Source: a virus | Direction: 5' to 3' (one strand) | DNA: 23,239 bases | IMG/VR virus record: IMGVR_UViG_3300002231_001540 | Span: 5,229-28,467 of that record | Part shown: positions 1 through 19,751 of the stretch, in pieces | How the letters are laid out: the number at the start of each line of letters is the position of its first letter | Numbering within the stretch: the stretch's first letter is position 1 | Translations under genes and position numbers: made by a program | The notes under the pieces: model-generated | What the model saw: the letters and a program-made list of their open reading frames with translations, nothing else | The model's database searches: none | Told to the model about the DNA's origin: nothing

Positions 1-569
1 ATCCGGTCAGCGGGTCGATCGACACCACAGAACGCGAGTAACCGCTTCGCCTCTGTGATATCCCTGTCCCGATAAAAACTTTCGTAAGATATGATGATAT
101 GTGGAACATCGAACTCATCCAGCGCACGTGATAACCGTTCGTCATATTTGCGGATCACCTGTGTCAGTTCCGTCCATGAAAACCACCGGAATTCGTTCAA
201 CTGGCTTTTTATCGTGTTATGTATCGACCGCTTGACCCATATCAACCGATCTATTTTGTTGTGCCATACGGGCAACATAATCATCAATTTCGGGTCTTTC
301 CAGTTGATGTCCGGGAACTCTGCAATCTTCTCTGTCCTGTAATTTCGTAATGTATCATAGGGCGGTATATCATCGAACAGTAACGGTCCGACACCTTGGG
401 GCGGTAATCGTGCCAGACGATTGATTATGATATCGTTGAGTAACCGCCCGAATTTATGTTCGTAGTTTCGTTCATGGTCATACGGTCCCGGGAACGGTAT
501 CCCGAGCGTGACGAGTAATTTGACTATCGCGGTCGTACCGGAACTGTTGAAGCCCGTCAGGACGATCAC
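1..569 (-). CDS. Sulfotransferase-like P-loop protein, C-terminus cut by window edge
   Basis: My translation from a GTG at 569 gives 189 open codons and runs off the left edge. The N-terminus reads VIVLTGFNSSGTTAIVKLL, resembling the 5'-phosphosulfate loop of PAPS-dependent sulfotransferases (GxxxSGTT). Near the visible end, VPHIIISYESFYRD resembles their second conserved block, and an FCGVD-type helix follows, as in that family. The GTG start is supported by GGAGGT six bases upstream and by a GTGA overlap with the stop of the preceding gene. Family members transfer sulfate to sugars, proteins or small molecules; the substrate here is unknown. The position directly after a glycosyltransferase and structural genes suggests a virion glycan. 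A different P-loop kinase-like enzyme remains possible because the 3' end is missing. Confidence 0.6.
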   Translation of the reverse strand, partial: MIVLTGFNSSGTTAIVKLLVTLGIPFPGPYDHERNYEHKFGRLLNDIIINRLARLPPQGVGPLLFDDIPPYDTLRNYRTEKIAEFPDINWKDPKLMIMLPVWHNKIDRLIWVKRSIHNTIKSQLNEFRWFSWTELTQVIRKYDERLSRALDEFDVPHIIISYESFYRDRDITEAKRLLAFCGVDRPADR

Positions 570-1024
570 GCCCGGACCTCCAGCCGAACGATCACGTCCG
601 CGTAATGGCATAGATGACCCGCGAAATCTGCCATGCCGATATCGGTCGCCTGTGCGCCTTCCATGTCCTCGATCCTGTCCCATGCGTTGGCATACGAGAT
701 ATTGGAGTGGACCGCGTCCACAACACCGTCGACTATGGTATGGAAGATATCTTCCGTATTGATCGAATCTTTGAACCCGTAATAGCCGCGACAGCGCATG
801 ACATGGATCTTCTTGATAAGCGCGGATGTGGATAATATCGGCGCGTAGGCGGTACGAGTGATCTCCCAGCCATTGATTATCTGCCGTGAATTATCGAAGA
901 AATATTCCTTGAACTTTGCAGGTTCGTTCGTCCAGCGCAACCGGTCGTGTACCTTCCCGATCCCGGTTACGCCCTCGAGGATGGTTTTCAATGCCGCTTT
1001 TATGTCAACGAGGGTGTCTGCCAT
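566..1024 (-). CDS. Probable tail terminator / tail completion protein
   Basis: This 152-residue protein follows a gp10-like gene, with one glycosyltransferase between, where HK97-like phages usually encode the tail terminator that caps the tail tube. It starts MADTLVDIKAALKTIL, continues with a mixed alpha/beta chain, and ends in a strand-like DVIVRLEVRA, the general look of tail-terminator proteins. No catalytic motif is visible. The ATG at 1024 lies inside the end of the upstream glycosyltransferase gene (25-base overlap), with GGAGG about ten bases upstream. The call rests mostly on gene order and size, so it is moderate; a generic minor tail protein is the alternative. Confidence 0.5.
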   Translation of the reverse strand: MADTLVDIKAALKTILEGVTGIGKVHDRLRWTNEPAKFKEYFFDNSRQIINGWEITRTAYAPILSTSALIKKIHVMRCRGYYGFKDSINTEDIFHTIVDGVVDAVHSNISYANAWDRIEDMEGAQATDIGMADFAGHLCHYADVIVRLEVRA

Positions 1025-2148
1025 TTACTGGCGTCCTCCATCTCGGGGTCCAGGATGGTTATCACCTGTTCTGACCATACATCTTCCGGGTCTTTGCGCG
1101 GCTGGTAGCGACCGTTATTATTGAGTGTTATGCTCTTCTCGGTCAGTATTTCAGTAAACCGTGCCGCACTATGATCCCAGGTGAGCGTATCATGCGCCCA
1201 CTCGCTCGCCTGTTTACGTTTCTTCGATGTATCGCCGTAATTGCGTGTCACACGCTTCAGGATATCAGCTAATTTATTTATATCCGGCTTCCAGCATGGG
1301 GTCAAATATTGTTCGATATGGCCATATTTATCGCCATTCTCGTCGATCTTATTCGTCATCTCACGGACATACATCTCAGCCGGTCGGGTAGGAACGATAC
1401 AGGCGGTATCGGGGGTTATATGTGTCTTGAGTCCGCCCTCTGCTACCGATACGACCAGCGCACCCGTCGCCATTGCTTCGAGCGGCGGCAGGCCGAACCC
1501 CTCCATCGTGCAGGTATGCAGAAAGACGTGGCTCTTGTAATAGAGCGCTTTCAGTTCCGCCCGTGTCATCTGCCTGCTGTCGAATATCGCGTTTGACAGG
1601 ATATCTATCCGGCCCGCCTTGTCTTCGGATGTGGTCTTGATATACAATTCGACGCTCTTATCATCCGGGTCGAATGCCTGCCAGAACGCATGAAGCGCAT
1701 AAATCCACATCTTACGGTGCGTGAATGCGCCCAGCCACAGGATACGGATCGGGTGTGGATCGTCCGGCCTGTCCCGATAGGCAAAGTCAGGATCAAAACC
1801 CAGGGGGCAATGATAGAACGGTGCTGACACGCCCGCGTTTTTGAACCAATCCGCGACGGTCTTGTTCGGCACCATGACGCCGTCCGCCTGATTGACACGA
1901 TTCGCGTAATTGCGGGGCACCTTCTGAAATTCCATCAGGCCATAAATCCATTCCTCACGGCTCCAGTCACGATCAGAAAACATCGGGATCATCAACTTGA
2001 TATCCGCACCCGGCCGGTGTATAATCCCGCGTCGATCAAGCGCATCAAGTAATGACTTCATGGTCGTCAGCCACCCGAATGTGGCCGGCAGTGCGTACTT
2101 CTGCCGTTCTTCCCAATTATCAACGTCTATTTCATGGAGTGCGGTCAA
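1000..2148 (-). CDS. GT-B glycosyltransferase (GT4/group 1 type)
   Basis: A 382-residue enzyme with the C-terminal hallmark of group 1/GT4 glycosyltransferases: MEGFGLPPLEAMATGALVV at about residues 216-234, where the glutamates normally contact the nucleotide sugar. Upstream are the inter-domain segment ADGVMVPNKTVADWF and IRILWLGAFTHRK, which begins the donor-binding Rossmann domain. Translation most likely begins at TTG 2148: the first in-frame ATG comes too late, GAGGA lies seven bases upstream, and the TTG overlaps the preceding TGA (TTGA). The gene sits between the gp10-like and tail-terminator-like genes, inside the structural operon, so it should be expressed late with virion proteins. 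Donor and acceptor cannot be told; modification of a capsid or tail protein is an inference. Confidence 0.82.
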   Translation of the reverse strand: MTALHEIDVDNWEERQKYALPATFGWLTTMKSLLDALDRRGIIHRPGADIKLMIPMFSDRDWSREEWIYGLMEFQKVPRNYANRVNQADGVMVPNKTVADWFKNAGVSAPFYHCPLGFDPDFAYRDRPDDPHPIRILWLGAFTHRKMWIYALHAFWQAFDPDDKSVELYIKTTSEDKAGRIDILSNAIFDSRQMTRAELKALYYKSHVFLHTCTMEGFGLPPLEAMATGALVVSVAEGGLKTHITPDTACIVPTRPAEMYVREMTNKIDENGDKYGHIEQYLTPCWKPDINKLADILKRVTRNYGDTSKKRKQASEWAHDTLTWDHSAARFTEILTEKSITLNNNGRYQPRKDPEDVWSEQVITILDPEMEDASKWQTPSLT

Positions 2149-2651
2149 TCGAGTTTCCTCGCGATATCTGTCGCTATCTTGCCCAATGTGCGGTTGATGT
2201 AAGGTTTCATAACTTTCAGCCCTTTCTGGTGCATCTGATATCCGCGCTTCTCCTTGAAGCCCTTACGCGCTATTTTACGTGCGATCAAGAACGCCATGCG
2301 CTTACCCTGCGGCAGACCCAACCGTCGGCCTTTACGCTTGAGCCAGTATTCGATCGCCGATATCGGTGGGAATTTGCCCGGATATTTACGACCGAACTCG
2401 ATGATCGAGCCATACGCCTCTGTCGGTGCGATACGACCGAGCCAGCCTTTACGGGTTTTCCTGACTGTCCAACCCTGCGCGATGCTCTGTGAGAGTGCGC
2501 CTGTAGAACCCACCGGTGTCAAGTCGCTTATCTTACCCGCTGTGATACCTGTCACGGCCTTCATCCGCGACTCAAATACCTGGTCGGTCACGTGCTTCAC
2601 GTTCTTATCGAACAGTGGGCCGCTGGTCTTTGCCTTACTCATGCTCAGCAT
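2145..2651 (-). CDS. HK97 gp10-like head-tail / minor tail protein
   Basis: A 168-residue basic protein with the pattern of the HK97 gp10 family: a central TPVGSTGALSQSIAQGW followed by YGSIIEFGRKYPG. Members act at the head-tail interface of siphophages and are normally encoded between the head-tail connector and the tail terminator, which matches the order here. The C-terminal half is rich in Lys and Arg, including IARKIARKGFKEKRGYQ. The start is ATG 2651, or possibly the fourth residue at 2642; no strong SD separates them. The stop overlaps the TTG start of the glycosyltransferase gene. Confidence 0.75.
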   Translation of the reverse strand: MLSMSKAKTSGPLFDKNVKHVTDQVFESRMKAVTGITAGKISDLTPVGSTGALSQSIAQGWTVRKTRKGWLGRIAPTEAYGSIIEFGRKYPGKFPPISAIEYWLKRKGRRLGLPQGKRMAFLIARKIARKGFKEKRGYQMHQKGLKVMKPYINRTLGKIATDIARKLD

Positions 2652-2654
2652 CGA

Positions 2655-3362
2655 TCACCGATAATCTTTCGTATGGGTCAGATAATCCACCTGATTGGCA
2701 AATTCGGAATCCCAATCTTTGGTCGATACCGCCACCTCCGGTTGCGGCTTATCGGACTTACCGATTGCCGTGAAGTATAACGCCCGGAACTTTTCCGCCA
2801 GCCGCGTATATTCCTCGCCTTTCGTCCGGTAGTTGATAACGTCCTGGCTCATGGTCGCGTCCTGCGTCTGTGTGAACTTCCCGGCAAGCGACCGATAACA
2901 ATACGCCGAGGCGAGCATACAGACAGCATTGAAATCATGGGCTGAGATCGTGTCTGTAGCGGGTCGATCGACAGGCGAGGTATGACGGCTCGTATACTTC
3001 AACTGGTAGGTGTCGGATGTGGACGGTGCCGCCGATGTGAACCGGAGTTGATACTTCGTGTTCGCACCATCATACCATATCGACCAATCTTCGGGTTCCA
3101 GTATCGTCCTCGGGTTGTTCCCGGTCGGATATTCCAACTCCAGGATCTTTGACCAATCCCAGATGAACCCTGTCGGAAGGTCATAATCGGGCGGGTCGCC
3201 ACCGTCGCCTGCTGTACGTTGATACTGGATATATGGCCGGTGGTCAGAGTGTTCATCCACCGCCGCTGTGATACATTCATCCATATCGAGTTGCGGTAAG
3301 TCGCTTATATCCACACGCAGGTAGGTCTTGACACGCTCCACATAATCTGAATAATCAGCCAT
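2655..3362 (-). CDS. Head-tail connector-like structural protein
   Basis: A protein of about 235 residues placed between small capsid-proximal genes and the gp10-like gene, where head-tail connector (gp6-like) proteins are usually found. The N-terminus (ADYSDYVERVKTYLRVDISD) resembles the short helical opening of connector proteins; a Tyr- and Thr-rich middle section suggests beta structure, and the C-terminus is helical. The start is placed at ATG 3362 rather than the longer GTG at 3371, because AGGTGA lies five bases before the ATG and overlaps the GTG itself. The gene follows the stop of the 94-residue gene by only a few bases. I do not recognise a specific family, so the function is by context. 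Confidence 0.5.
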   Translation of the reverse strand: MADYSDYVERVKTYLRVDISDLPQLDMDECITAAVDEHSDHRPYIQYQRTAGDGGDPPDYDLPTGFIWDWSKILELEYPTGNNPRTILEPEDWSIWYDGANTKYQLRFTSAAPSTSDTYQLKYTSRHTSPVDRPATDTISAHDFNAVCMLASAYCYRSLAGKFTQTQDATMSQDVINYRTKGEEYTRLAEKFRALYFTAIGKSDKPQPEVAVSTKDWDSEFANQVDYLTHTKDYR

Positions 3363-3367
3363 CGGGA

Positions 3368-3649
3368 TCACCTGTAATAGAGGTTGACAGCATCGATTTC
3401 ACCGTTTACGTCCACATATAACCCGCCTGCGAACGCTGTTACGGGGTCCGCTACCGCGGCATTATTCGCGATACAATTCACATGGAGCAGTTTCTTGCCG
3501 CTCGTGGAACTGCCTGCGTAGATGATCGCCTCACCAGTAGCCGTCCCGGCGCTCAAAACCACCTGGCCCAATATCCCGTTGATGTTGGTGGCCACGGCCT
3601 GGCTTGCCTGCGTGACAATAGCGACCTCGAAAGGTCCGAAATATGTCAT
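3368..3649 (-). CDS. Small structural protein, possible decoration or fibre component
   Basis: A protein of about 93 residues rich in Ala, Gly, Val and Thr with short alternating hydrophobic stretches (VNGILGQ-type, EAIIYAGSSTSGKKLLHV, FAGGLYVDVNG), typical of small beta-rich phage structural proteins. It has no catalytic motif, signal peptide or membrane segment. The gene overlaps the end of the glycosyltransferase-methyltransferase gene. Two adjacent ATG codons are possible (3652 and 3649); the second has better spacing from AAGGTG. Capsid decoration or head-fibre roles are guesses from its position between capsid and connector genes; it may also be an acceptor for the neighbouring glycosyltransferases. 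Confidence 0.55.
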   Translation of the reverse strand: MTYFGPFEVAIVTQASQAVATNINGILGQVVLSAGTATGEAIIYAGSSTSGKKLLHVNCIANNAAVADPVTAFAGGLYVDVNGEIDAVNLYYR

Positions 3650-5047
3650 CATTTCACCTTCGCTTTCTTCTTGCTGTTTTTCTTTCGTGATGGTGGGGCC
3701 TTTATCTGTTCCTGTATCTGTGACGCTACCTGCGAGGCTGCTATTGTGGTGTCGATCTTACCGCCCCGCTGTTGTGCGAGGATATGCTTGCCCAGGTTAC
3801 GGGTATCCTCCGCCGCTTCGGCCACCTTTTCGTCGTATTTATCGTCCAGGACGGGCTGCAGGTTCCTGGCTTTACGGTGTCGATACTTTGTCGCACGCGC
3901 TATCAGGTTGATCGTCCGGCCTGTCGGGTCACGTTCGATGTCGATCTCCTTCAGGCAACCCATCGATTTGAGCAATTTATCGAGCATCTGTACCGTGAAC
4001 CCGATCCGGTGGTTATACTGCGGGGTCGGTTCCGGCTTGCCGTAGATTATCCACCAATCCTGCGCGCCGTCTTTCTGGTCCAGGATATTACGCATCGCGC
4101 GTTCGAGGTCGGGTACTTCAAGCCGTAATTCACCATCGATCTTCAATATCCGAAGCCATTCCCGTAACACGTCAGGTACTTCCTCATAATCGAAATGCTC
4201 GAGTACGTTGTTGGAAAAGACGACATCGAATTTCTGGTCCGGTTCCGGGATCTTACGCACATCACAGCGCACGTCTGGGTTGACCGATTCATCGAGATCA
4301 TAACGTATGACACGACCGTCCATACAGCCGCGAGTGACCATTCCACTACCGATATCAGCGATTAACTTGCCTTCATAGCCGGATGTGGTCACCTGCGGTT
4401 GCGCCTGTGTCATATCGTTCGTCAGGCCCCACGCCATGCCGCTGTTGCGGTCTTCGTGCCAGCATTGTATCGATGCGTCGGCCCATAACTCGTATCCGGC
4501 CTCTTTCGTCTTCGCGTAGAAATAATAATCTTCCGTCGCTATCGGGACGGGTTCGTCCTGTTCATCGGAAAAGAGCCAATCACACGAGAACCAGGGCGGA
4601 TCGATGTTCCTGAATACGTCCGTATTGACCATCAGACAATCACAACCCGCGAGGTTTACTTTGAAGAATTCGCCTGCCTTCCAATCCAGGAACGGACCTT
4701 GCTGATAATCACGCCAGATATAGGGCAATGTCGGACTGCCTTTTGTCCAGTAGATCCCGGTGACGATATCCACCTGCCGTGACCATAACTGCGAGAGCAC
4801 ATTCGCGGGTGGGATAACGTCATCCCCAAGAAAAAACAGGTATTTCGAATCGATCTCCAGCGCCAGTTCGACGATCTCGTTCCGTGCATCCGCGACGGCC
4901 TTGTCGAACACGAATTTTTTCGGCCACGGTACTACCCAACGGGGCGCTCAGGTGACGAAACCCGAGCGCCCAGTTGACAGATACGCGGCCCTTGCTGAAG
5001 GTTGGAATACCCACCGTGAATAACGGACATATCTTAGGCTTCGGCAT
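3649..5047 (-). CDS. GT-A glycosyltransferase-methyltransferase fusion, interrupted by a frameshift
   Basis: The gene is read in two frames. From ATG 5047 (AGGGG upstream) 44 codons encode MPKPKICPLFTVGIPTFSKG and onward to STVAEK, the first strand and helix of a GT-A glycosyltransferase. At an A6 run (4915-4920) the frame must move forward one base to continue as FVFDKAVADARNEIVE, then FFLGDDVIPP (the DD metal/nucleotide-sugar site) and LAGCDCLMVNTDVFRNI, giving about 465 residues. The second half is an SAM methyltransferase: LIADIGSG, then DVVFSNNVLEHF and LKIDGELRLEVPD. The tail is Lys-rich. Without a shift, the first frame stops at 4820 and the second could only start at GTG 4911, lacking the first strand. 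Sequencing error, +1/-2 recoding, slippage or an inactivated gene are all possible. It lies between structural genes. Confidence 0.75.
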
Positions 5048-5069: not shown

Positions 5070-5495
5070 TTAGCGCAATTCGTAATCAAAGAAAAAGTTC
5101 GCGGCGAACAGTTTGCCCACACTCGACGCCGTGGCCTGAGTCGAAAACGCGGCTACAACGATATCGCCCGCGTCCAGTTCGGTCGTACCCGTAGTCGGGA
5201 TACTACCGCTCGCGTTACTTGCCACGGACGCCGTGAACCGGTAGGACGCGAGTACCGCCGTTCCCGTACCCGCCGCACCGGCATCCAGGATCGATACCTT
5301 GTGGTTGTTTGTCGCGTGAGCGGTCTGATCGCCTTCGGTCGGGATCCACCTGACAGCCGTGATCCGGCATTTATGCGGTGCGGTCCAGACCCCGAATTGT
5401 GTGGCGGCCGCAGCGTTCGACGCACGGCTCGCCTGTGTGAATGGACCGGCGGTGAATACAAGGCCCCGCAGGTCGGAAGCGTTTGTGCTACCCAT
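5070..5495 (-). CDS. Beta-rich capsid-proximal structural protein (decoration-like)
   Basis: A 141-residue protein immediately downstream of the capsid fusion gene, the usual place of head decoration or capsid-stabilising proteins. The sequence is low in charge and rich in Ala, Thr, Ser and Gly, with alternating beta-like patterns such as ITAVRWIPTEG, HKVSILDAGAAGTGTAVL and GDIVVAAFSTQ, and an aromatic end (FAANFFFDYELR). Two near ATG codons are possible; GGAGGG lies eight bases before ATG 5495 but only two before 5501, so 5495 is preferred. The specific family is not recognised. The many Ser and Thr residues would suit O-glycosylation by the neighbouring enzymes, which is speculation. Confidence 0.55.
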   Translation of the reverse strand: MGSTNASDLRGLVFTAGPFTQASRASNAAAATQFGVWTAPHKCRITAVRWIPTEGDQTAHATNNHKVSILDAGAAGTGTAVLASYRFTASVASNASGSIPTTGTTELDAGDIVVAAFSTQATASSVGKLFAANFFFDYELR

Positions 5496-5529: not shown

Positions 5530-8040
5530 TTACACGACGCCCTTATAGAACCCGCGGTAATCCAGCACACAGATCCCGAAGATGTGCCGGATCTTGTAAC
5601 TGATCTTATCCGCATTGAATACAGACGTTGCGGCGATCATGTTCGAGTCCTGGACGAACAGCTCCGGTTCCTCACGGCCATTGAAAAAGCCCACCTCCAG
5701 GAGCGGCATCTCCATCTTATCCGCCACGAGGATATAGTCCTTCGCGTCCGTCCAGTAATCGATCACCATGTACTTGAGACCCTTGTACGGGTTCGGGGTG
5801 GTCGCTGTCTGTGACGCTACCGTGGTGAATGCGGTCGCATCGAAGTTCGTGTCTGACTCCGAAATCAGCATCGCCAGGCTTTTCAACTCGTTCGGTACGC
5901 AGAGCAGCACGGGCTTATTGACCGCACCCAATGTTTCGGCGCTGTTACCGTATGCCGTCTGTGTCCGCATGGCGTATTCCGCCGCATCGATTGCCGATAG
6001 CGATAATGACGATGTACCGCTATTGGAATGCGATCCGTGGAACAGGGTCGTACCGTCATACGCCGTGGCCGTGTTATCGACGAAAACATCGAAAACGGCC
6101 TTGTAGAGTGTGCGGATAGCGGCCCGTGCCAGCGAACGCGGGATACGGCGGATGAAGCCTACATTATCGTTTGCGACCATCTCCATCGTGATGTCATCAA
6201 TCCCGCCGTATTTCGAGATCGAATAGGTATTCGCGTCATCACCTGGGCTGGTCAGCGTGTTGTAAGTACCCTGCTCCGCCACGGTTGACAGGTCACCATA
6301 CCCGCCGAATATCGAACGGGTCTGGGTCTGAAACGACGAAATCGACGTGATATCGGACGCTACCTCGCGCCATGCCTGTAACGGCGATTCGCTGTACTCG
6401 CGGATCAGGACGTTATTGATCGCCGTACCGAGCACCGACGCCAGGTCGGAGGTCTGTAATGATTCGCGCAGGTAGTTCTGTTCCTCCCTGTCCGGCGAAT
6501 AGAGCGCGATCTCACGCAGAATTTCGGCCGGTGACGCGAACCCATCACCCATGACCTTCTTGCACGATTCCGTAAATGACCGGAAACGCGGGATACCGTC
6601 GATATCCTTGTTCTCGAAGAAACCCTCGAACGCCTTCCGTTTCTTGTCCTGTTCCTCCTCACGGACCTCGATCGTCTGGCCCGGAACCTTCACGACACCC
6701 GATCCACTCAATTTCGACAGGTATTCCTTCTCCTGCGAGATCGATTCCCGGATCTGTGCCCTGGTCGCGACACGGTCACGGTAAAGGTGTTTCACCCGCT
6801 CACGTGCGATATCCGGCAGGTTCGCGTCCTGTAATTCTTCCTTGAGCGCCACCCGTGTCTGTGTCAGTTCCAATTCCTTGAGGATCTGATTCGCCTTCTG
6901 TTCGGTGATGCCCATGTGCCTATCGAGCGTGTTATTGCTCTCAGTGCTGGTGCTGGCTGTCTCCACCGGCTCTGGGTCATCCTCGACCTTCGGCGGTTCT
7001 ACAGGGTTTAGAATATCGCTGAAGATCGATTCTGCCTCTTCCAGCTTATCCTCCTGCAAGTACCCGTATGCGCGGTTCAACTTCGATTTCAGTACACTCT
7101 CGGAAAACTTGTCATCCGAGAGTGATTCCACGACCGCGACGAATTTTTCTGCGATCGCCTCCGCTGTTGCCGCGTCCTTGTCGAAATCCTCCAGCACGTC
7201 GGGCTTTACGGCCTCGATCAGCTGGAGCAGGATTTTCTTGATTTTGTCCATCTTCATGTCCTCTCGATATTTATCCATAGATGCCACAAGCCGCTCGAAT
7301 TTGCCGCCTGCGGCTGGATGGGTCACCACGTCCACGCTGTCCAACCCGGTAATAGAACCCACCCAATCGACCATCTTGCCCAGGTGCTCGCGTGCCTCGC
7401 TTACACCCACGGCATCAATAGAAAGCCCGAGATAATCGTGATTACCACGCTTCCACGCATCCAACAGTTTTTGCCTTAACCAGGACGCTCCCTCGTCAAT
7501 ATGAAATTTGGCGACAGCAACTGCTTTCTCCGTGCCCTCAACGACTTTCGTTATAACGCGCGGTTCGCTGAACCAGCCAACCAGGTTACCGACAAGACCA
7601 TACGGTTGTTCTCGTTTTGCTTCCAGCGGGAGATGTTCCTGCCGGTCCTTTGCGGTATATGTAAACGCCTTCGCGCCCTCGAGATGTTTCGCGACCGCCT
7701 CGATCGCCTCCCTCGAGTAATAGCGCGGGATGAACCCGCCGTTACCGTCATGGCGGCCATTCTTCGACTCGCCCTCCTCGATAACGACGACTTCCCATAC
7801 CTTGCCTTCCGGGTCGGCTTCGACCAACCGGCCAGGTAGAGATTCCTTGAAGCTCAATTCACTCATCTCATCGATTGCCTCCTTTTTCTTTTTTAAGATA
7901 GCGTTCGCGGCCTTGAACGCCTTTTCCTCGTCCTTTGTCTCCTGCCAGACGGACATCCAGATGTGCATCCATTCACGCTGTATCTTTTCGGGATACTTTC
8001 TTACGTGGTCTGGCAGATCTGATATTCTGCTGTATGGCAT
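5530..8040 (-). CDS. ChaB domain-prohead protease-scaffold-major capsid protein fusion
   Basis: One unbroken 836-residue frame joins four parts. Residues 1-55 (MPYSRISDLPDHVRKY to AANAILKK) match the ChaB family. Residues about 60-255 look like a phage prohead protease: possible catalytic His at QEHLP (136) and Ser at GLSIDAVG (207), then VDVVTHPAAGGKF, the conserved block near the domain end. Residues about 260-440 are charged and helical, as in scaffolding regions that the protease removes. Residues about 450-836 form an HK97/Mu gpT-type capsid domain with TLFHGSHSN and IRHIFGICVLDYRGFYKG near the end. AAAGG precedes ATG 8040. An internal ATG at 6915 (MGITEQK) could give separate scaffold-capsid chains, but its SD is weak. 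In most relatives protease and capsid protein are separate genes. Confidence 0.85.
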   Translation of the reverse strand: MPYSRISDLPDHVRKYPEKIQREWMHIWMSVWQETKDEEKAFKAANAILKKKKEAIDEMSELSFKESLPGRLVEADPEGKVWEVVVIEEGESKNGRHDGNGGFIPRYYSREAIEAVAKHLEGAKAFTYTAKDRQEHLPLEAKREQPYGLVGNLVGWFSEPRVITKVVEGTEKAVAVAKFHIDEGASWLRQKLLDAWKRGNHDYLGLSIDAVGVSEAREHLGKMVDWVGSITGLDSVDVVTHPAAGGKFERLVASMDKYREDMKMDKIKKILLQLIEAVKPDVLEDFDKDAATAEAIAEKFVAVVESLSDDKFSESVLKSKLNRAYGYLQEDKLEEAESIFSDILNPVEPPKVEDDPEPVETASTSTESNNTLDRHMGITEQKANQILKELELTQTRVALKEELQDANLPDIARERVKHLYRDRVATRAQIRESISQEKEYLSKLSGSGVVKVPGQTIEVREEEQDKKRKAFEGFFENKDIDGIPRFRSFTESCKKVMGDGFASPAEILREIALYSPDREEQNYLRESLQTSDLASVLGTAINNVLIREYSESPLQAWREVASDITSISSFQTQTRSIFGGYGDLSTVAEQGTYNTLTSPGDDANTYSISKYGGIDDITMEMVANDNVGFIRRIPRSLARAAIRTLYKAVFDVFVDNTATAYDGTTLFHGSHSNSGTSSLSLSAIDAAEYAMRTQTAYGNSAETLGAVNKPVLLCVPNELKSLAMLISESDTNFDATAFTTVASQTATTPNPYKGLKYMVIDYWTDAKDYILVADKMEMPLLEVGFFNGREEPELFVQDSNMIAATSVFNADKISYKIRHIFGICVLDYRGFYKGVV

Positions 8041-9003: not shown

Positions 9004-11403
9004 TTAAGCCGTCCTGATTCGTTTCAACATATCCGTATAGCCAGCCCATGATTCCTGTGCTGCCGTCTCCATATCCTCAAACGTCCATTCGACACCGAAC
9101 GGTTGGGCCACAACCTGCAGCATATCCCGGACATGGGTCTCGTCGATATCGCCGTCTATCTTCAACTGTATCAACGCCTGCGCGGTCAGTTGCAATACCT
9201 TCGCGTGCTGTTCGAGGTCTTTCGGTGATAGTTCCGGGAATGCTACATTGACGGTCGTGTCCGCTTCTTTCGGGATTTCGCCCGCTTCTTTGCCTGTTTC
9301 GATCACATAATCGAAGATATAGCGCATGATGGCCTCGATCTCCGCCTGTCGTGACCGCAGCCGCTTGTTCGCGGGGTCGCCCATCTCCAGCGCTGTCGCC
9401 CTGTTCACATCACCGCCCTCGCCGAGCCAGTGTTCCGGGAACCCAACCCCGAACCCGATATAATTACGGATCAGGTTGAAATCGGTCTGGAACTGGTAGG
9501 CTTCCAGTTTCGGGGCCATGATATCATATTGCAACCGGTCGTTATGCGCGTTCACACGGCCTGGTTTCGGCATCTGTGCGCCGGAACCTGCAAGGAACGC
9601 GTCCACCTCTTCCTGTGTCGCACCCGGCATCACGACATCGACCCAGTAATTCGATAATACCTCGACCTTTTCTGCGCGGTTGAACAGAAGCCGATCGAGC
9701 ACATCGATAGCGTCCATAACGGGTAACAGGTCCGACAGGCCGCGTGTCGCGTTCGAGAGTTTATTGACCGCGAAGTAAAAGACCTGCCCGTCGGTAAAGG
9801 TATCGCGTTTCGCCTTCGCCTGGTCCGATATCGCCGTCTCATCCAGCAGCGTCTTCGCCTGATATTCATCCAGCCCCACCTTCCAGGTGATCCCGATCGC
9901 GGTCTCGCAGTTCAAGGGGTCGACAATCACTTCCTTGATGTTCCTGGGATCGAGATAACCCAGCCGTACCATGCCGGTATATTCGTCCACGAATACCGGC
10001 CAGCAATTTTTCACAACCATACCCTCAGCGACATAATTGTGATGATGCTCAACATTCATATTGTAGACATCAACAGGTTCTGGCACATCTTCGACAGACA
10101 AAACAACATGGTTGAGCGCTCTGTTTTGTGCCCGCGATTCTCTATTTTTAGCAATCATTTGCCTGCGCGATTCTTCAGACATTCTTGCCATACCTTCAGA
10201 TATCCGTCGAGATTGTTCTGCCTTCTGCTCTGGGGTCATTCGCGCTTGGTATGCTAACTTAGCTGCCCGGATTTTTTCTCTTGTCTCTTGAGAGGGGGGC
10301 GCCTGTACGGCGGCTCTCCACGCAAACGACTCTTCTGTGGCCTTTCTTGCGGTTGCAATTCTGGCTGCCCTTTCCTCATCAGAGTAACTTGCCCATAACT
10401 CGCGCGATCTTATGCCAACTTTTGCACGATTCTCGGGATTGTCCATTGGGTTGTTTACCTTTAACTCCTTGCGTTTATACGGCTTCGGCCGACGCCCATG
10501 AATTGCCATGTGCGCCTCTCTCGTAAGAAGCTGAAGGTTCTCAATACGATTGTCTTTTTTGTTGCAATTGACGTGATGAATATCGTGACCTCCCGGGATC
10601 GGACCGTTTGTTTCTTCATAAACAAAGCGGTGAGCTTGCTTGCATCCTTTGCCGACTCGAAGATATTCATACCCAAGCCTTTCATGAGAATAAAGGGACA
10701 TTACCCTGTCCCCGGGCCTCAAGTCGCCAGCTTCACGCCATTCTCCTGATGTTAGTAAAATCTTATGGTCAGGGGTGCATGTAATTTCATCGACTCGTTT
10801 ATGGTTGGCGTGTAAAGTCCGCAACCGGACAACGTGTTTGTTACCGGTCTTCCCGCATTTAGTCGCGCGTCCAACCGTAAATCGTTTGTTTTCAAAATCC
10901 CAACAATAGACATCGAATGGTTCTTGCTTGGCTGCTAAATCTTGAATCCGCCTATGGCCATTCGGTGTATGTATGCGGGTGTCGCCGGAAACGCATTGTT
11001 CGCCGTACAGGCTCAACTCACGCACCTTCGCGTGTAATTTCGTTTCCCACCGGTTTATCGGATCGGTCCAGAACCGGTCGAGCCAGGCCTGAACGTCCTT
11101 GTCCTCAGCCTTGTAGGACAGCCCATCACCGACGACATAATCTTTCTTGAGTTCGATAATCGACCGTGCGATGGGGTTTACGACCCAGACATAATACGCG
11201 AGTTGCAGCATCTTATCGTGATCGATCGGTTTCAGGTCTTTATCCGATCGTGCGGTTAAAGGCCGCCACAGGTTTTCATCGGTATCCACCCACCGGCCGA
11301 TAACAGGCACATCGGCCTCTCGAAGAGATGTCGGTTGTGGCGGCTTAAAAGCGTTGTCGATGACAGTCAACGCTTCCCTGGCTTTGGTTAGGTATTTATT
11401 CAT
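9004..11403 (-). CDS. Portal protein precursor containing an intein
   Basis: A 799-residue precursor. Residues 1-136 and 467-799 join to form a portal of about 469 residues: the N-terminal portion has LQLAYYVWVVNPIARSIIE and the ELKKDYVVGDGLSY block, and after the splice WPVFVDEYTGMVRLGYLDPRNIKEV and YQFQTDFNLIRNYIGFGVGFPEHWLG resemble phage portals. The portal forms the dodecameric ring at the capsid vertex through which DNA is packaged. Residues 137-466 are an intein (separate entry), so function should depend on protein splicing. Neighbours (TerL upstream, MuF-like downstream) fit. The start at 11403 overlaps the end of a 58-residue gene by eight bases. Confidence 0.88.
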   Translation of the reverse strand: MNKYLTKAREALTVIDNAFKPPQPTSLREADVPVIGRWVDTDENLWRPLTARSDKDLKPIDHDKMLQLAYYVWVVNPIARSIIELKKDYVVGDGLSYKAEDKDVQAWLDRFWTDPINRWETKLHAKVRELSLYGEQCVSGDTRIHTPNGHRRIQDLAAKQEPFDVYCWDFENKRFTVGRATKCGKTGNKHVVRLRTLHANHKRVDEITCTPDHKILLTSGEWREAGDLRPGDRVMSLYSHERLGYEYLRVGKGCKQAHRFVYEETNGPIPGGHDIHHVNCNKKDNRIENLQLLTREAHMAIHGRRPKPYKRKELKVNNPMDNPENRAKVGIRSRELWASYSDEERAARIATARKATEESFAWRAAVQAPPSQETREKIRAAKLAYQARMTPEQKAEQSRRISEGMARMSEESRRQMIAKNRESRAQNRALNHVVLSVEDVPEPVDVYNMNVEHHHNYVAEGMVVKNCWPVFVDEYTGMVRLGYLDPRNIKEVIVDPLNCETAIGITWKVGLDEYQAKTLLDETAISDQAKAKRDTFTDGQVFYFAVNKLSNATRGLSDLLPVMDAIDVLDRLLFNRAEKVEVLSNYWVDVVMPGATQEEVDAFLAGSGAQMPKPGRVNAHNDRLQYDIMAPKLEAYQFQTDFNLIRNYIGFGVGFPEHWLGEGGDVNRATALEMGDPANKRLRSRQAEIEAIMRYIFDYVIETGKEAGEIPKEADTTVNVAFPELSPKDLEQHAKVLQLTAQALIQLKIDGDIDETHVRDMLQVVAQPFGVEWTFEDMETAAQESWAGYTDMLKRIRTA
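10006..10995 (-). mobile_element. Intein with HNH homing endonuclease, inserted in portal gene
   Basis: Residues 137-466 of the portal precursor (330 residues). The N-terminal splicing block is CVSGDTRIHTPNGHRRIQDL with nucleophile Cys137. Block B is EITCTPDHKILLTSGEW, carrying the TxxH motif, followed by DLRPGDRV. The C-terminal blocks are PVDVYNMNVEHHHNYVAEG and VVKN, then Cys467 as the first extein residue. The penultimate intein residue is Lys rather than the usual His. The middle holds an HNH endonuclease (HDIHHVNCNKKDNRIENLQ) and repeats such as SQETREKIRAAK and MSEESRRQMIAKN that look like NUMOD3-type DNA-binding elements. The DNA is visibly more AT-rich than flanking portal sequence, consistent with acquisition by homing. 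Confidence 0.93.
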
Positions 11404-13228: not shown

Positions 13229-13580
13229 CGATCTCCTGTTTCTCGATATAGCCCCTTTGTTTGCCCTGGGTTTTGAGATAAAAACAGATAGCCCAGGCTT
13301 CACCACGCTCAATCGCACGAAACAGCGCAATCTCTGTTCGATCAAGTTGAAACTCGCGCATGCCTGCAAGTGCATCCTTGATCTCGGGATGCTTTGCTAT
13401 CTTGTTGTAGATGGTTTTGCGGCTACAGTGGATTGACCGGGCGGCTGCGACTATCATTCCGTTGTTGGCTTCAAGCGCCTGGATTATCTGTTCTGGCGTA
13501 AAGCGCGATTCCCGACCACCCGGCCTGGCTTTTTTAGGTGTATCTTTTGTAGATTCTTTGGCAGGCTTTTTCTTACTCAC
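13149..13580 (-). CDS. terS: Terminase small subunit
   Basis: A 143-residue protein: a basic N-terminal tail (KKKPAKESTKDTPKK), then a helix-turn-helix at about residues 25-63 (TPEQIIQALEANNGMIVAAA and CSRKTIYNKIAKHPEIKDAL), a helical middle, and KTQGKQRGYIEKQEIDVNV, typical of small terminases. It recognises the packaging site and regulates TerL. It is the first gene of the late operon, about 70 bases downstream of the promoter hexamers. The start is GTG 13580; no ATG is available before the HTH and no well-spaced SD is seen (AGGAAG is too far), so translation may be weak or controlled by the leader hairpins. Confidence 0.85.
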   Translation of the reverse strand: MSKKKPAKESTKDTPKKARPGGRESRFTPEQIIQALEANNGMIVAAARSIHCSRKTIYNKIAKHPEIKDALAGMREFQLDRTEIALFRAIERGEAWAICFYLKTQGKQRGYIEKQEIDVNVNDRREAREEVEKLLAEVAAECD

Positions 13581-13587
13581 AAAAAAA

Positions 13588-13621
13588 CCCGACTTCCTGG
13601 TTCCGGGGGACAGTTATCCCC
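13588..13621 (-). promoter_or_regulatory. Two overlapping leader hairpins before TerS
   Basis: In the late-operon leader, GGGGA (13621-13617) can pair with TCCCC (13610-13606) over a six-base loop. Alternatively CCCG (13607-13604) can pair with CGGG (13591-13588), followed at once by seven T residues (13587-13581) and the GTG start. The two helices share bases 13606-13607 and so exclude each other. The second resembles a weak intrinsic terminator. Regulation is an inference from layout only; the helices are short. Confidence 0.35.
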
Positions 13622-17250: not shown

Positions 17251-17475
17251 TTATAGTTCCTTTATCGCTTGTTTCGTGCGGCCCTGGTTCCATACGACGC
17301 GGTACTCACGGTCCGGGTGCAGGTCTTTGAGCCACCGCATTTCCATCGCCAGCCAGTCGTTTGCCCGGTACTCGAAGTTGTGTCCGCCGCCGCCATGTGC
17401 GGAGCAATATCGTTTATCGGGGTCAATCCATCGTGTCACGATCCCGCGTGGTTGGTTTTGATGTTGCCAGTTCAT
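17251..17475 (-). CDS. Small hypothetical protein coupled to helicase-methyltransferase
   Basis: A 74-residue protein whose ATG overlaps the stop of the upstream fusion gene as ATGA, so it is likely translated by coupling. It contains DPDKRYCSAHGGGGHNFEY, a His/Cys/Gly-rich turn, and WLAMEMRWLKDLHPDREYRVVW, a tryptophan-rich helix followed by a strand, then a basic C-terminus. No known family. An AAGGAA/TTCCTT hairpin spans its stop codon (17244-17262). It may be an accessory of the upstream enzyme or simply its operon partner. Confidence 0.6.
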   Translation of the reverse strand: MNWQHQNQPRGIVTRWIDPDKRYCSAHGGGGHNFEYRANDWLAMEMRWLKDLHPDREYRVVWNQGRTKQAIKEL

Positions 17476-19751
17476 TTGGTTACCTCCATATCAAATAGTG
17501 TCGGTGTCGTTGATTGAGTCTCAATGGTTCTCAAGTTTTTTAATGCTTCTTGATAGTATGACTTTTTCAACTCGATACCGAGGAACCGCCTGCCTAATGC
17601 AATTGCCATATATCCGGTAGAACCGATCCCCATAAATGGATCGAGAATTAGTTCTTTCGGGTTGCTCCACAGCTTGATGCATCTTTCGATTGTCCCGAGT
17701 TGCAATGGGCAGATGTGTTTTTCGTCATCTTTATCGCGCGCCTTGCTGTACTGCAGGGTTTCTGTCTCTCGTATCCCGAACCATATCCCGTGTGCCCAAT
17801 TAATCCAGGTTTCATTGTCCAATTCATTATTGGCAACTGGTGTGATCGGAACTGCGTTATCGCCCGGCTTTTTGAATATCAAAATCTGGTCAATGAGTGC
17901 AGGTCTGGATGCAGCGCTATCTTTACGGATTTGAACAAAGAGTAGCGCCTTGCTTTTCACCCGTATCGCCTGCGCCTGTGGATTCTTTTGTATAAATGCA
18001 CGCCCGGAAAAGATCCAGCCTTCCTGCTCATGTGCCCGGATTACTTCACCCGGAAAGTCGCGAACTCCGATATACCCATCACGAACGGCCATCGCGGGGA
18101 TATCGCTTACATGAACAGCGGATATCCGTCCTGGTTTTGTCGCTCGTAGGACGCCCTGAACAATAAATTTATAATGCTTAAAAAACTCCGACCAATCTCG
18201 ACAGTTTCCGAGATCGCGCTCACTTTCTGTATAAGTAAACAGGTCTGCAAAAGGTGGAGAATAAACCGATAAATCTATACTGTCGTTATCTATTCTCATG
18301 AGTTCTTCGCACGAGTCCCCTCTTGTTGCCTCCCAAGATCCGCCTTGTTCAACAATCCTCTCTGTAGACTCAATCCTATTTTTCTTCCCCATCAATTCCT
18401 CCTTTTGATAGATTGATGCGTGTTCAATAAGCCCTCTTCGCAGTCGCTTCGCCATTGCATCTTTACGCATTATATTCTGATAAATCTCTATTTCAAGATT
18501 AGATGAAATTACATATACATTAACGGGTCTATCTTGACCAAACCTCCATTGCCGCCGGATACATTGATACCATGATTCCCAGGAGTCATTAAGCCCAAAG
18601 AACATCATGTTGCTCGCATTCTGGAAGTTCATTCCAAAGCCACCAATCCGGGGTTTTGTAACCAAAATCCTAAATCTTCCATCTTGGAAATCTTCAAATG
18701 TTTTTGCCTTATGATCTGGTGAATCAGATCCTCGTACTTCCCTGGCATTGCCGTCTAATGTCTTCATTATGTTTTTTGCCTCGGAATCCAACCCAACCCA
18801 AATAATCCACTGACGGTTACTTAATACAAGGACTTTGTTCAAGGCAGCGAGGCGCGCATCCAATGTTTTCCTGCGGACGTTTGCACGATCAGATATACCA
18901 GATAGTTTTGTAAAAAACAATTGACCGACTGGGACATAATCTACGTTAACAAACATCGGTTTAATATTGAGTGGCGGCAAATCAAAACCATCATCACCAT
19001 ATCCTAAGTCGGAAGGCCGCATAAGACACATTGCCCAATTAGAAAGCCAACGGAAAAATGGCTTTTCTGCTGGATGTTTTAGTCGCCATTCCTGACCGCC
19101 ATTATTAGACCCCTTCTTGCGCCATGCCTTACCATTTTCATCAATAAATGTATGCTCTTTATTCGCGTTGATAAAAAACATAGCCTGCATCTCAGTTGCC
19201 TTACAGATTCCCAAAAACTCAGCATGGTTCCCCAACTCTATTAAATCGTTTGGAGCTGGCGTAGCAGTACAACAAAGCCGGTATTTTGTATCTGAAAACA
19301 TCTTAATGAGTTTTTGTTTTGTTTTCCCCCCGATCGCTTTCAATATCGATGATTCGTCTAAAACAACCGATCGAAAGGCTTCAGGTGTAAAGTTGTTTAT
19401 CATCTCATAGTTTGTGATGTTTATCCCAGGCCTTACTCCATCTTGTCCCCGGCAATAATTAACAGATAAACCCAGAAGCGAAGATCCCATTCGAACTGTT
19501 TGACGAGCAACGCTCAGGGGCGCAATAATTAAAGATGTCCCCCCCAACAACCTCGACCATTCTAACTGCATTAAGGTTTTTCCTAATCCAGTATCAGCGA
19601 AGATGGCCGACCGCCCCATTTTTGCTGCCCAGATGACAATATCTCTTTGAAAATCAAATAGTCGATTGTCAACATCTCTGCAGTCTATGTCAATGCCTCG
19701 ACCAACTACCGTCATCTTTTTTGACTTCAAAAACTCGCCATAATCTGGCAT
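17472..19751 (-). CDS. SNF2-like helicase/translocase fused to DNA methyltransferase
   Basis: A 759-residue two-part enzyme. The N-terminal half is a superfamily 2 SNF2-like motor: LFDFQRDIVIWA, Walker A ADTGLGKT (52-59), DESS in place of DEAH (132-135), CTATPAPNDL (161-170), and motif VI QCIRRQWRFGQDRPV (396-410). The C-terminal part from about 470 is an amino-methyltransferase of the N4/N6 type: SVYSPPFADLF (motif IV, 495-505) precedes the SAM-binding LILDPFMGIGSTGYMAIALG (701-720), the beta-class order. SPPF hints at N4-cytosine but N6-adenine is not excluded. GGAGG precedes ATG 19751. The DNA is clearly more AT-rich than neighbouring genes, suggesting recent acquisition. No nuclease domain is seen, so self-protection from host restriction is more likely than restriction. 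Confidence 0.88.
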   Translation of the reverse strand: MPDYGEFLKSKKMTVVGRGIDIDCRDVDNRLFDFQRDIVIWAAKMGRSAIFADTGLGKTLMQLEWSRLLGGTSLIIAPLSVARQTVRMGSSLLGLSVNYCRGQDGVRPGINITNYEMINNFTPEAFRSVVLDESSILKAIGGKTKQKLIKMFSDTKYRLCCTATPAPNDLIELGNHAEFLGICKATEMQAMFFINANKEHTFIDENGKAWRKKGSNNGGQEWRLKHPAEKPFFRWLSNWAMCLMRPSDLGYGDDGFDLPPLNIKPMFVNVDYVPVGQLFFTKLSGISDRANVRRKTLDARLAALNKVLVLSNRQWIIWVGLDSEAKNIMKTLDGNAREVRGSDSPDHKAKTFEDFQDGRFRILVTKPRIGGFGMNFQNASNMMFFGLNDSWESWYQCIRRQWRFGQDRPVNVYVISSNLEIEIYQNIMRKDAMAKRLRRGLIEHASIYQKEELMGKKNRIESTERIVEQGGSWEATRGDSCEELMRIDNDSIDLSVYSPPFADLFTYTESERDLGNCRDWSEFFKHYKFIVQGVLRATKPGRISAVHVSDIPAMAVRDGYIGVRDFPGEVIRAHEQEGWIFSGRAFIQKNPQAQAIRVKSKALLFVQIRKDSAASRPALIDQILIFKKPGDNAVPITPVANNELDNETWINWAHGIWFGIRETETLQYSKARDKDDEKHICPLQLGTIERCIKLWSNPKELILDPFMGIGSTGYMAIALGRRFLGIELKKSYYQEALKNLRTIETQSTTPTLFDMEVTK

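Follow-up and report, generated by a model that had tools for sequence, protein, structure and literature searches.

A putative modular virion-glycosylation cassette among the head and tail genes of an uncultivated phage

Why would a phage keep glycosyltransferase and methyltransferase genes between those for its capsid and those for its tail? The question is raised by a stretch of 23,239 nucleotides (hereafter the window), which corresponds to bases 5229 to 28467 of virus record IMGVR_UViG_3300002231_001540; the record has a length of 28,467 bases, and this 28.5-kb parent sequence is probably a fragment. All genes of the locus lie on the minus strand and are transcribed from the capsid genes toward position 1, in the order protease/major capsid protein fusion (MCP), capsid cement (decoration) protein, fusion of a GT-A glycosyltransferase with a methyltransferase (the fusion), small protein p94, connector, gp10-like protein, GT-B glycosyltransferase (GTB1), tail-terminator-like protein (TT), and sulfotransferase-like gene (ST). 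With moderate confidence, we propose that the enzymes belong to a modular virion-glycosylation cassette that is expressed late together with the head-tail genes and acts on the phage's own particle, whose outside it would decorate, with the cement protein as the likeliest first acceptor.

The layout of the locus agrees, with some corrections, with the claim of an earlier note on this DNA that carbohydrate genes are interleaved with head-tail genes in one late operon. Because neighboring genes mostly abut or share 4 to 25 bases, we regard them as a single translationally coupled unit. Overlaps of 4 bases join the fusion gene (3649-5047) to p94 (3368-3652), p94 to the connector gene (2655-3371), and the gp10-like gene (2145-2651) to GTB1 (1000-2148). 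The overlap between GTB1 and TT (566-1024) is 25 bases, the GTG start of ST (3-569) overlaps TT by 4 bases, and the gap between the connector and gp10-like genes is just 3 bases. The same note counted three enzyme genes, a set that proved too small. Just beyond the window, the record continues with a second methyltransferase (MT2) and a second glycosyltransferase of family GT4, followed by the tail tube gene (PF18906, E = 7e-34) and a tape-measure-like open reading frame (ORF). In the window and the rest of the record, there are at least five enzymes spread over three insertion sites.

Apart from the sulfotransferase-like protein, these enzymes fall into recognizable families. GTB1 matches PF13692 (E = 3e-11; 44 bits against a cut-off of 27), PF00534 (E = 4e-11; 43.3 bits against 26.4), and the glycosyltransferase family PHROG 2170 (E = 3e-29), and it retains an intact E-x7-E motif (EGFGLPPLE), which places it in GT4. 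The second GT4 enzyme, 37% identical to GTB1, also exceeds the cut-off for PF00534, and MT2 exceeds that for PF08241. The methyltransferase half of the fusion matches PF08241 (Methyltransf_11) with an E value of 2e-10 (41.7 bits against a cut-off of 21.2) and has the DIGSG and LEHF motifs, which are largely conserved in its relatives, as is typical of a class I S-adenosylmethionine-dependent methyltransferase. The GT-A half is assigned more tentatively, mainly from an alignment of eight family members, in which an FFLGDDV segment is conserved, a DWKAGEFF block is invariant, and the GDD motif is retained in most proteins, its second aspartate in all of them. A homolog from a related locus, L004, falls just under the cut-off for PF00535 (E = 2e-4; 21.9 bits against 23.3), and the copy in the window, which has lost its N terminus to a frameshift, gives a weak match to Anp1. 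The fusion that had been described in this gene is recovered by reading through, although the gene is not one open frame: its N terminus (from 5047) and its body (4911-3649) lie in different frames, separated by an extra base in an A6 run (4920-4915), and a single protein results when four bases are read as one codon. Seven other contigs carry the homologous gene in a single frame, so the frameshift probably stems from a sequencing error or arose very recently by mutation. None of 50,697 isolate-phage records covers 80% of the fusion protein.

If the enzymes serve the virion, their association with structural genes should be visible beyond one record. Scans with the single sequences of GTB1, MCP, and terminase returned nothing. 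Profile scans succeeded, bringing in more than 100 contigs, whose loci we designate by L-numbers; with the MCP profile, there was no prophage or bacterial-genome relative. In 52 distinct MCP-anchored contigs, the region between MCP and the neck genes can be seen, and comparison among relatives defines two sites where enzyme genes are placed: slot A, from the cement gene to the connector, and slot B, from TT to the tail tube. The fusion occupies slot A in the window, L004, L016, L181, L096, and L162, always directly after the cement gene or with small ORFs alone in between, while L137, L149, and L143 carry MT2 there together with a GT9-like protein, so labeled from its appearance and a marginal NCBIfam match (E = 0.07). 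Slot B holds a CgeB-like glycosyltransferase in L005, L016, and L181, a methyltransferase plus a CgeB-like glycosyltransferase in L147, L148, L157, and L163, and ST, MT2, and the second GT4 enzyme in the window's own record. Thus, relatives exchange one set of glycosyltransferase and methyltransferase genes for another at these two sites. Counting those glycan genes that profiles detect, slot A was occupied in 7 of the 27 contigs that have a cement gene and in 0 of the 25 that lack it (P = 0.01, uncorrected for kinship), and for slots A and B together the numbers were 10 of 27 and 0 of 25; genes missed by the profiles are uncounted. Many other contigs, including that of Microcystis phage Mae-JY22, have no detected glycan gene in the MCP-to-neck stretch. 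Because the interleaving of structural and glycan genes recurs in independent contigs, it reflects more than chance, and a position among virion genes is where glycosyltransferases that modify the virion are expected. The suggestion that a phage-encoded set of enzymes acts on the particle is supported by the gene order of relatives, its sulfation part aside. Conservation next to the same structural genes extends to the fusion and not to the GT4 or sulfotransferase-like genes. The position of GTB1 between gp10 and TT was found in the window alone. A different order is seen in L183 (5537-8334), where MCP, cement, a GT-A-like gene, and a head morphogenesis gene follow one another.

Which protein would carry the glycan? 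The best candidate is the Ser/Thr-rich protein encoded at 5070-5495, which the earlier note had already named as a candidate. Homologs occur in 64 loci, and the gene stands directly after MCP. An AlphaFold2 model built with 40 homologs (predicted local distance difference test score [pLDDT], 78.8) has eight strands. Foldseek alone gave no clear match to a cement protein, and the viral structure library gave no helpful named match. Realignment with VIA-align placed the cement proteins of KHP30 (7dn2; Z = 9.9), cyanophage Pam1 (7eel_H; Z = 9.5), KHP40 (7dou; Z = 9.3), and Ralstonia phage GP4 (8h89_J; Z = 9.1) at ranks 1, 3, 5, and 6. These alignments cover 110 to 123 residues at 7 to 20% sequence identity, and the Ser/Ala-rich loop motifs described below set the fusion-linked proteins of the present set apart from them. 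Since the unrelated protein 8yzo scores as high (Z = 9.6), the match is good without being unique. Together with the MCP-adjacent gene, the modeled fold is what one would predict for a trimeric cement protein. Cement trimers of GP4 are located on the outer capsid surface (PMC9698820).

The cement proteins that precede the fusion form one clade (support, 98/94), which persists when the motif columns are removed (98/89). The best MCP tree does not unite the fusion-bearing contigs, but their monophyly is not rejected (approximately unbiased [AU] test, P = 0.30), so the link between fusion and cement protein could be mere shared descent, and horizontal transfer of the two genes as a unit, which we had considered, was not shown by the same test. 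Within this clade, an A-S-x-A-S motif occurs at two matching positions in the proteins of the window, L004, L016, and L096. One copy is left in L162, and the exact motif is gone in L181; it is absent from the cement protein of L183, which is followed by its different GT-A-like gene, and from the remaining cement proteins. In the model of the window's protein, both copies (residues 22-30 and 88-96) lie in Ser/Ala-rich loops between strands. The motif was noticed post hoc and marks one clade, and for these reasons it is suggestive rather than proof. More generally, A-S-x-A-S was found in 8 of 65 clusters beside GT-A genes versus 13 of 990 clusters (P = 1.5e-5), an enrichment that is likewise suggestive because the motif was picked after looking and neighbors share families. 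High Ser/Thr content as such was dropped as a mark of acceptors, having separated fusion-linked from other proteins among the first nine cement sequences and failed in the larger set.

The small protein p94, also put forward as an acceptor, is possibly a minor head protein and belongs to no family in Pfam or PHROG. By eye, similar proteins stand just upstream of the connector gene in L005, L016, L181, and L147. These look-alikes occur both with and without a fusion nearby (e.g., an 88-amino-acid protein in L147), which makes p94 the weaker candidate. Other small proteins of this region were noticed by eye as well. In L016 (7620-7841) and L181 (2471-2897), proteins that look membrane spanning are encoded between the cement and fusion genes. 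In L004, a 114-residue protein ahead of the connector (13245-13589) resembles the C-terminal extension of the tail-terminator-like protein of the same contig (15071-15871), as if a surface domain had been copied and fused.

We infer the virion acceptor, the part of the cement protein, the order of the steps, and the sugars of the following scheme. The GT-A domain would most likely start the glycan by linking one sugar to exposed loop serines of the jelly-roll cement protein, and the fused methyltransferase would cap or modify that sugar. The two GT4 enzymes could then extend the glycan, to which MT2 would add a methyl group; a sulfate would come from ST if that protein is indeed a sulfotransferase. 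Masking of the capsid, or altered surface charge and adhesion, could be a sensible purpose.

A second capsid lineage shows a comparable arrangement. Many of the loci found with the GT-A profile carry an unrelated MCP (PHROG 9953), and no locus has both MCP types. In 31 of 39 such loci, some of which come from the same contig, MCP is followed by a small protein of about 160 to 240 residues, at most one small ORF, and then a GT-A gene, with a methyltransferase usually next. Given that these contigs were fetched for their glycosyltransferase, its presence is uninformative and its position is what informs. A-S-x-A-S appears in 5 of 16 small proteins of the first set, mostly near the C terminus. 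One example of the arrangement is L060 (2581-5601); in such loci, another GT-A gene often comes a few genes later. From these patterns one could build a bolder account, in which a methylated and sulfated O-glycan decorates the trimeric cement protein, the GT-A family recognizes A-S-x-A-S in exposed loops, and, in two or more unrelated capsid lineages, the small proteins encoded beside MCP are targets of the same GT-A/methyltransferase pair; taken whole, we consider this quite unlikely.

Sulfation depends on the most weakly placed of the enzymes. ST most likely starts at 569 rather than 683 and is clipped by the window edge, beyond which it crosses an NN gap (record positions 5227-5228) and goes on as far as about position 5186 of the record. 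Even at E values up to 10, its sole Pfam match is PF13469 (Sulfotransfer_3; E = 0.023; 14.7 to 15.4 bits against a cut-off of 27). That match spans positions 126 to 213 of the 216-position profile, the expected C-terminal part in the correct register, and motifs of the 3'-phosphoadenosine-5'-phosphosulfate (PAPS) type (SGTT near the N terminus, KDPK, R-x7-S, and YES) are present in the right order and spacing, a combination found in 0 other of 11,744 ORFs with a pattern that was written with ST in view. From these sequence features, it is plausible that ST is a sulfotransferase. Two metagenome studies include sulfotransferase genes in their lists of viral auxiliary genes (PMC10829341, PMC12285232). 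On the other hand, ST could be another P-loop enzyme, with no sulfation as the consequence, an explanation that we find somewhat unlikely in view of the register and the motifs. It would account for the subthreshold score, for empty searches of NCBIfam and PADLOC, and for the lack of a homolog in the viral contigs, phage isolates, plasmids, bacterial genomes, and relatives compared. A sequence search of the PDB gave chance RNA-binding matches only, and a single-sequence structure model (pLDDT, 39.5) was unusable. The gene is seen in the window's record and in no relative. With ST weakly placed and lacking a homolog in relatives, sulfation of the glycan is not supported in the form in which the earlier note had stated it.

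Phage virion glycosylation is known experimentally from a few mycobacteriophages. Three papers that cite Freeman 2023 report that Mycobacterium phages bear glycans, made by phage glycosyltransferases, at the C termini of their capsid and tail-tube subunits (PMC12619734, PMC12363180, PMC12691614). What the present phage shares with Che8, Corndog, and Myrna is a set of phage-encoded glycosyltransferases with the phage's own particle as the proposed target. The enzymes differ, since the present set comprises a GT-A/methyltransferase fusion by the cement gene, two GT4 enzymes, MT2, and a sulfotransferase-like gene, and so does the acceptor, which is capsid and tail tube there and a candidate cement protein here. 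A limited search of open papers turned up no account that ties a GT-A/methyltransferase cassette to a cement gene, and relative to known phage virion glycosylation, the gene set, its location, and the candidate acceptor are new. A link to actinobacterial phages, which had been drawn from the outset, holds at a distance. GTB1 has distant homologs (117 records; 22 to 26% identity) that include the Streptomyces phage glycosyltransferases LukeCage gp43 and Faust gp18. In those two records, the genes are near ribonucleotide reductase and endolysin genes and not between head and tail genes, that of LukeCage being upstream of the portal gene.

Several points weigh against a cassette that acts first on the cement protein. 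The slot B genes are closer to the tail tube than to the capsid, and the glycan itself is predicted from genes. The fusion gene is frameshifted in the very record that we describe, and its bearers may be a single clade by the MCP tree. The correlation with A-S-x-A-S comes from one clade and was spotted after looking, and L181 has the fusion yet has lost the exact motif. Finally, relatives from the second lineage were retrieved through their glycosyltransferase, so that its position alone counts. Alternatively, the glycan might be on another virion protein (tail tube, MCP, or p94), with the cement gene a mere neighbor of the enzymes. Half of the enzymes, partly outside the window, adjoin the tail tube, L147, L148, L157, and L163 have slot B as their only filled slot, and the known glycans of mycobacteriophages are on capsid and tail tube. 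We nevertheless judge this explanation unlikely: the fusion is never separated from the cement gene by more than small ORFs, and detected slot A genes are absent wherever the cement gene is absent.

Modification of the virion also has to be set against targets outside it. It is well known that phage glycosyltransferases can alter host surface polysaccharides, and the enzymes might modify a host surface glycan during infection, for superinfection exclusion or receptor masking, while merely being expressed late. The membrane-spanning-looking proteins beside the fusion in L016 and L181 would fit such a role. Yet no component of a gtr cluster (GtrA flippase, GtrB, or membrane glucosyltransferase) appeared among the window proteins that were run against Pfam, which included part of the small ORFs, and relatives put different enzymes into the same structural slots. 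Phage glycosyltransferases that act on DNA are known too, and sulfotransferase-based modification of nucleotides has been suggested (PMC10829341), which would make glycosylation or hypermodification of phage DNA conceivable. However, no gene for modified-base biosynthesis was recognized among the same Pfam-run proteins of this probably fragmentary record, the DNA enzyme in view, an N6/N4 DNA methylase joined to a helicase, is of an ordinary kind, and the glycan enzymes are grouped with virion genes rather than with replication genes. Both explanations are made less likely by the interweaving of these genes with the head-tail operon, frequently through translational overlap, by their place beside MCP in two capsid lineages, and by the lack of recognized gtr-type or modified-base genes among the Pfam-run proteins of a record that is probably a fragment. 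A host-surface target thus seems decidedly improbable, and to a DNA target we give very little credence.

If virion glycosylation by this cassette is real, it would be a modular trait of uncultivated phages with recognizable insertion sites. There would also be an enzyme family, the GT-A/methyltransferase pair, that recurs beside MCP in two capsid lineages and has a named, testable candidate acceptor. A sulfated, methylated capsid would alter the charge and adhesion of the particle, and it would provide a testable reason for the occurrence of sulfotransferase-like genes in phages.

The structural genes that frame the cassette were identified to different degrees. MCP (5530-8040), our anchor for comparing relatives, matches PF25209 (Phage_capsid_4; E = 8e-42; 144.8 bits) and PHROGs 133 and 4523 (head maturation protease; major head and protease protein). 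The gp10-like protein, a putative neck/tail completion protein, is just under the cut-off for HK97-gp10 (PF04883; E = 0.003; 18.8 bits against 21.4) and matches PHROG 5 (neck/tail completion; E = 1e-4). The gene classes first named from the sequence therefore stood for the methyltransferase and GT4 enzymes, with Pfam scores above cut-off, and for the gp10-like protein and MCP. The connector-type (head-tail joining) and tail-terminator-like proteins owe their names to their position and to homologs that keep this order, not to Pfam. For the connector, which has no Pfam match and no significant PHROG match, these are found in 81 loci (33% identity to Mae-JY22; E = 4e-27). TT belongs to no Pfam family and has homologs at the equivalent place in 68 loci (29% identity to Mae-JY22; E = 1e-17). 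Mae-JY22 (PP438414) is the nearest sequenced isolate by MCP fusion (32%) and has MCP fusion, connector, gp10-like gene, and TT in the same order. It differs in having no detected cement or glycan gene between MCP and TT, with the connector directly after MCP. Elsewhere in the window, the portal protein (9004-11403) contains an intein that includes an HNH endonuclease domain (PF14890, E = 3e-15; PF13392, E = 3e-17) and extends from about residue 140 to 467, and the fused DNA methylase mentioned above is a 759-residue protein (17472-19751) that joins an SNF2-type helicase to the N6/N4 DNA methylase.

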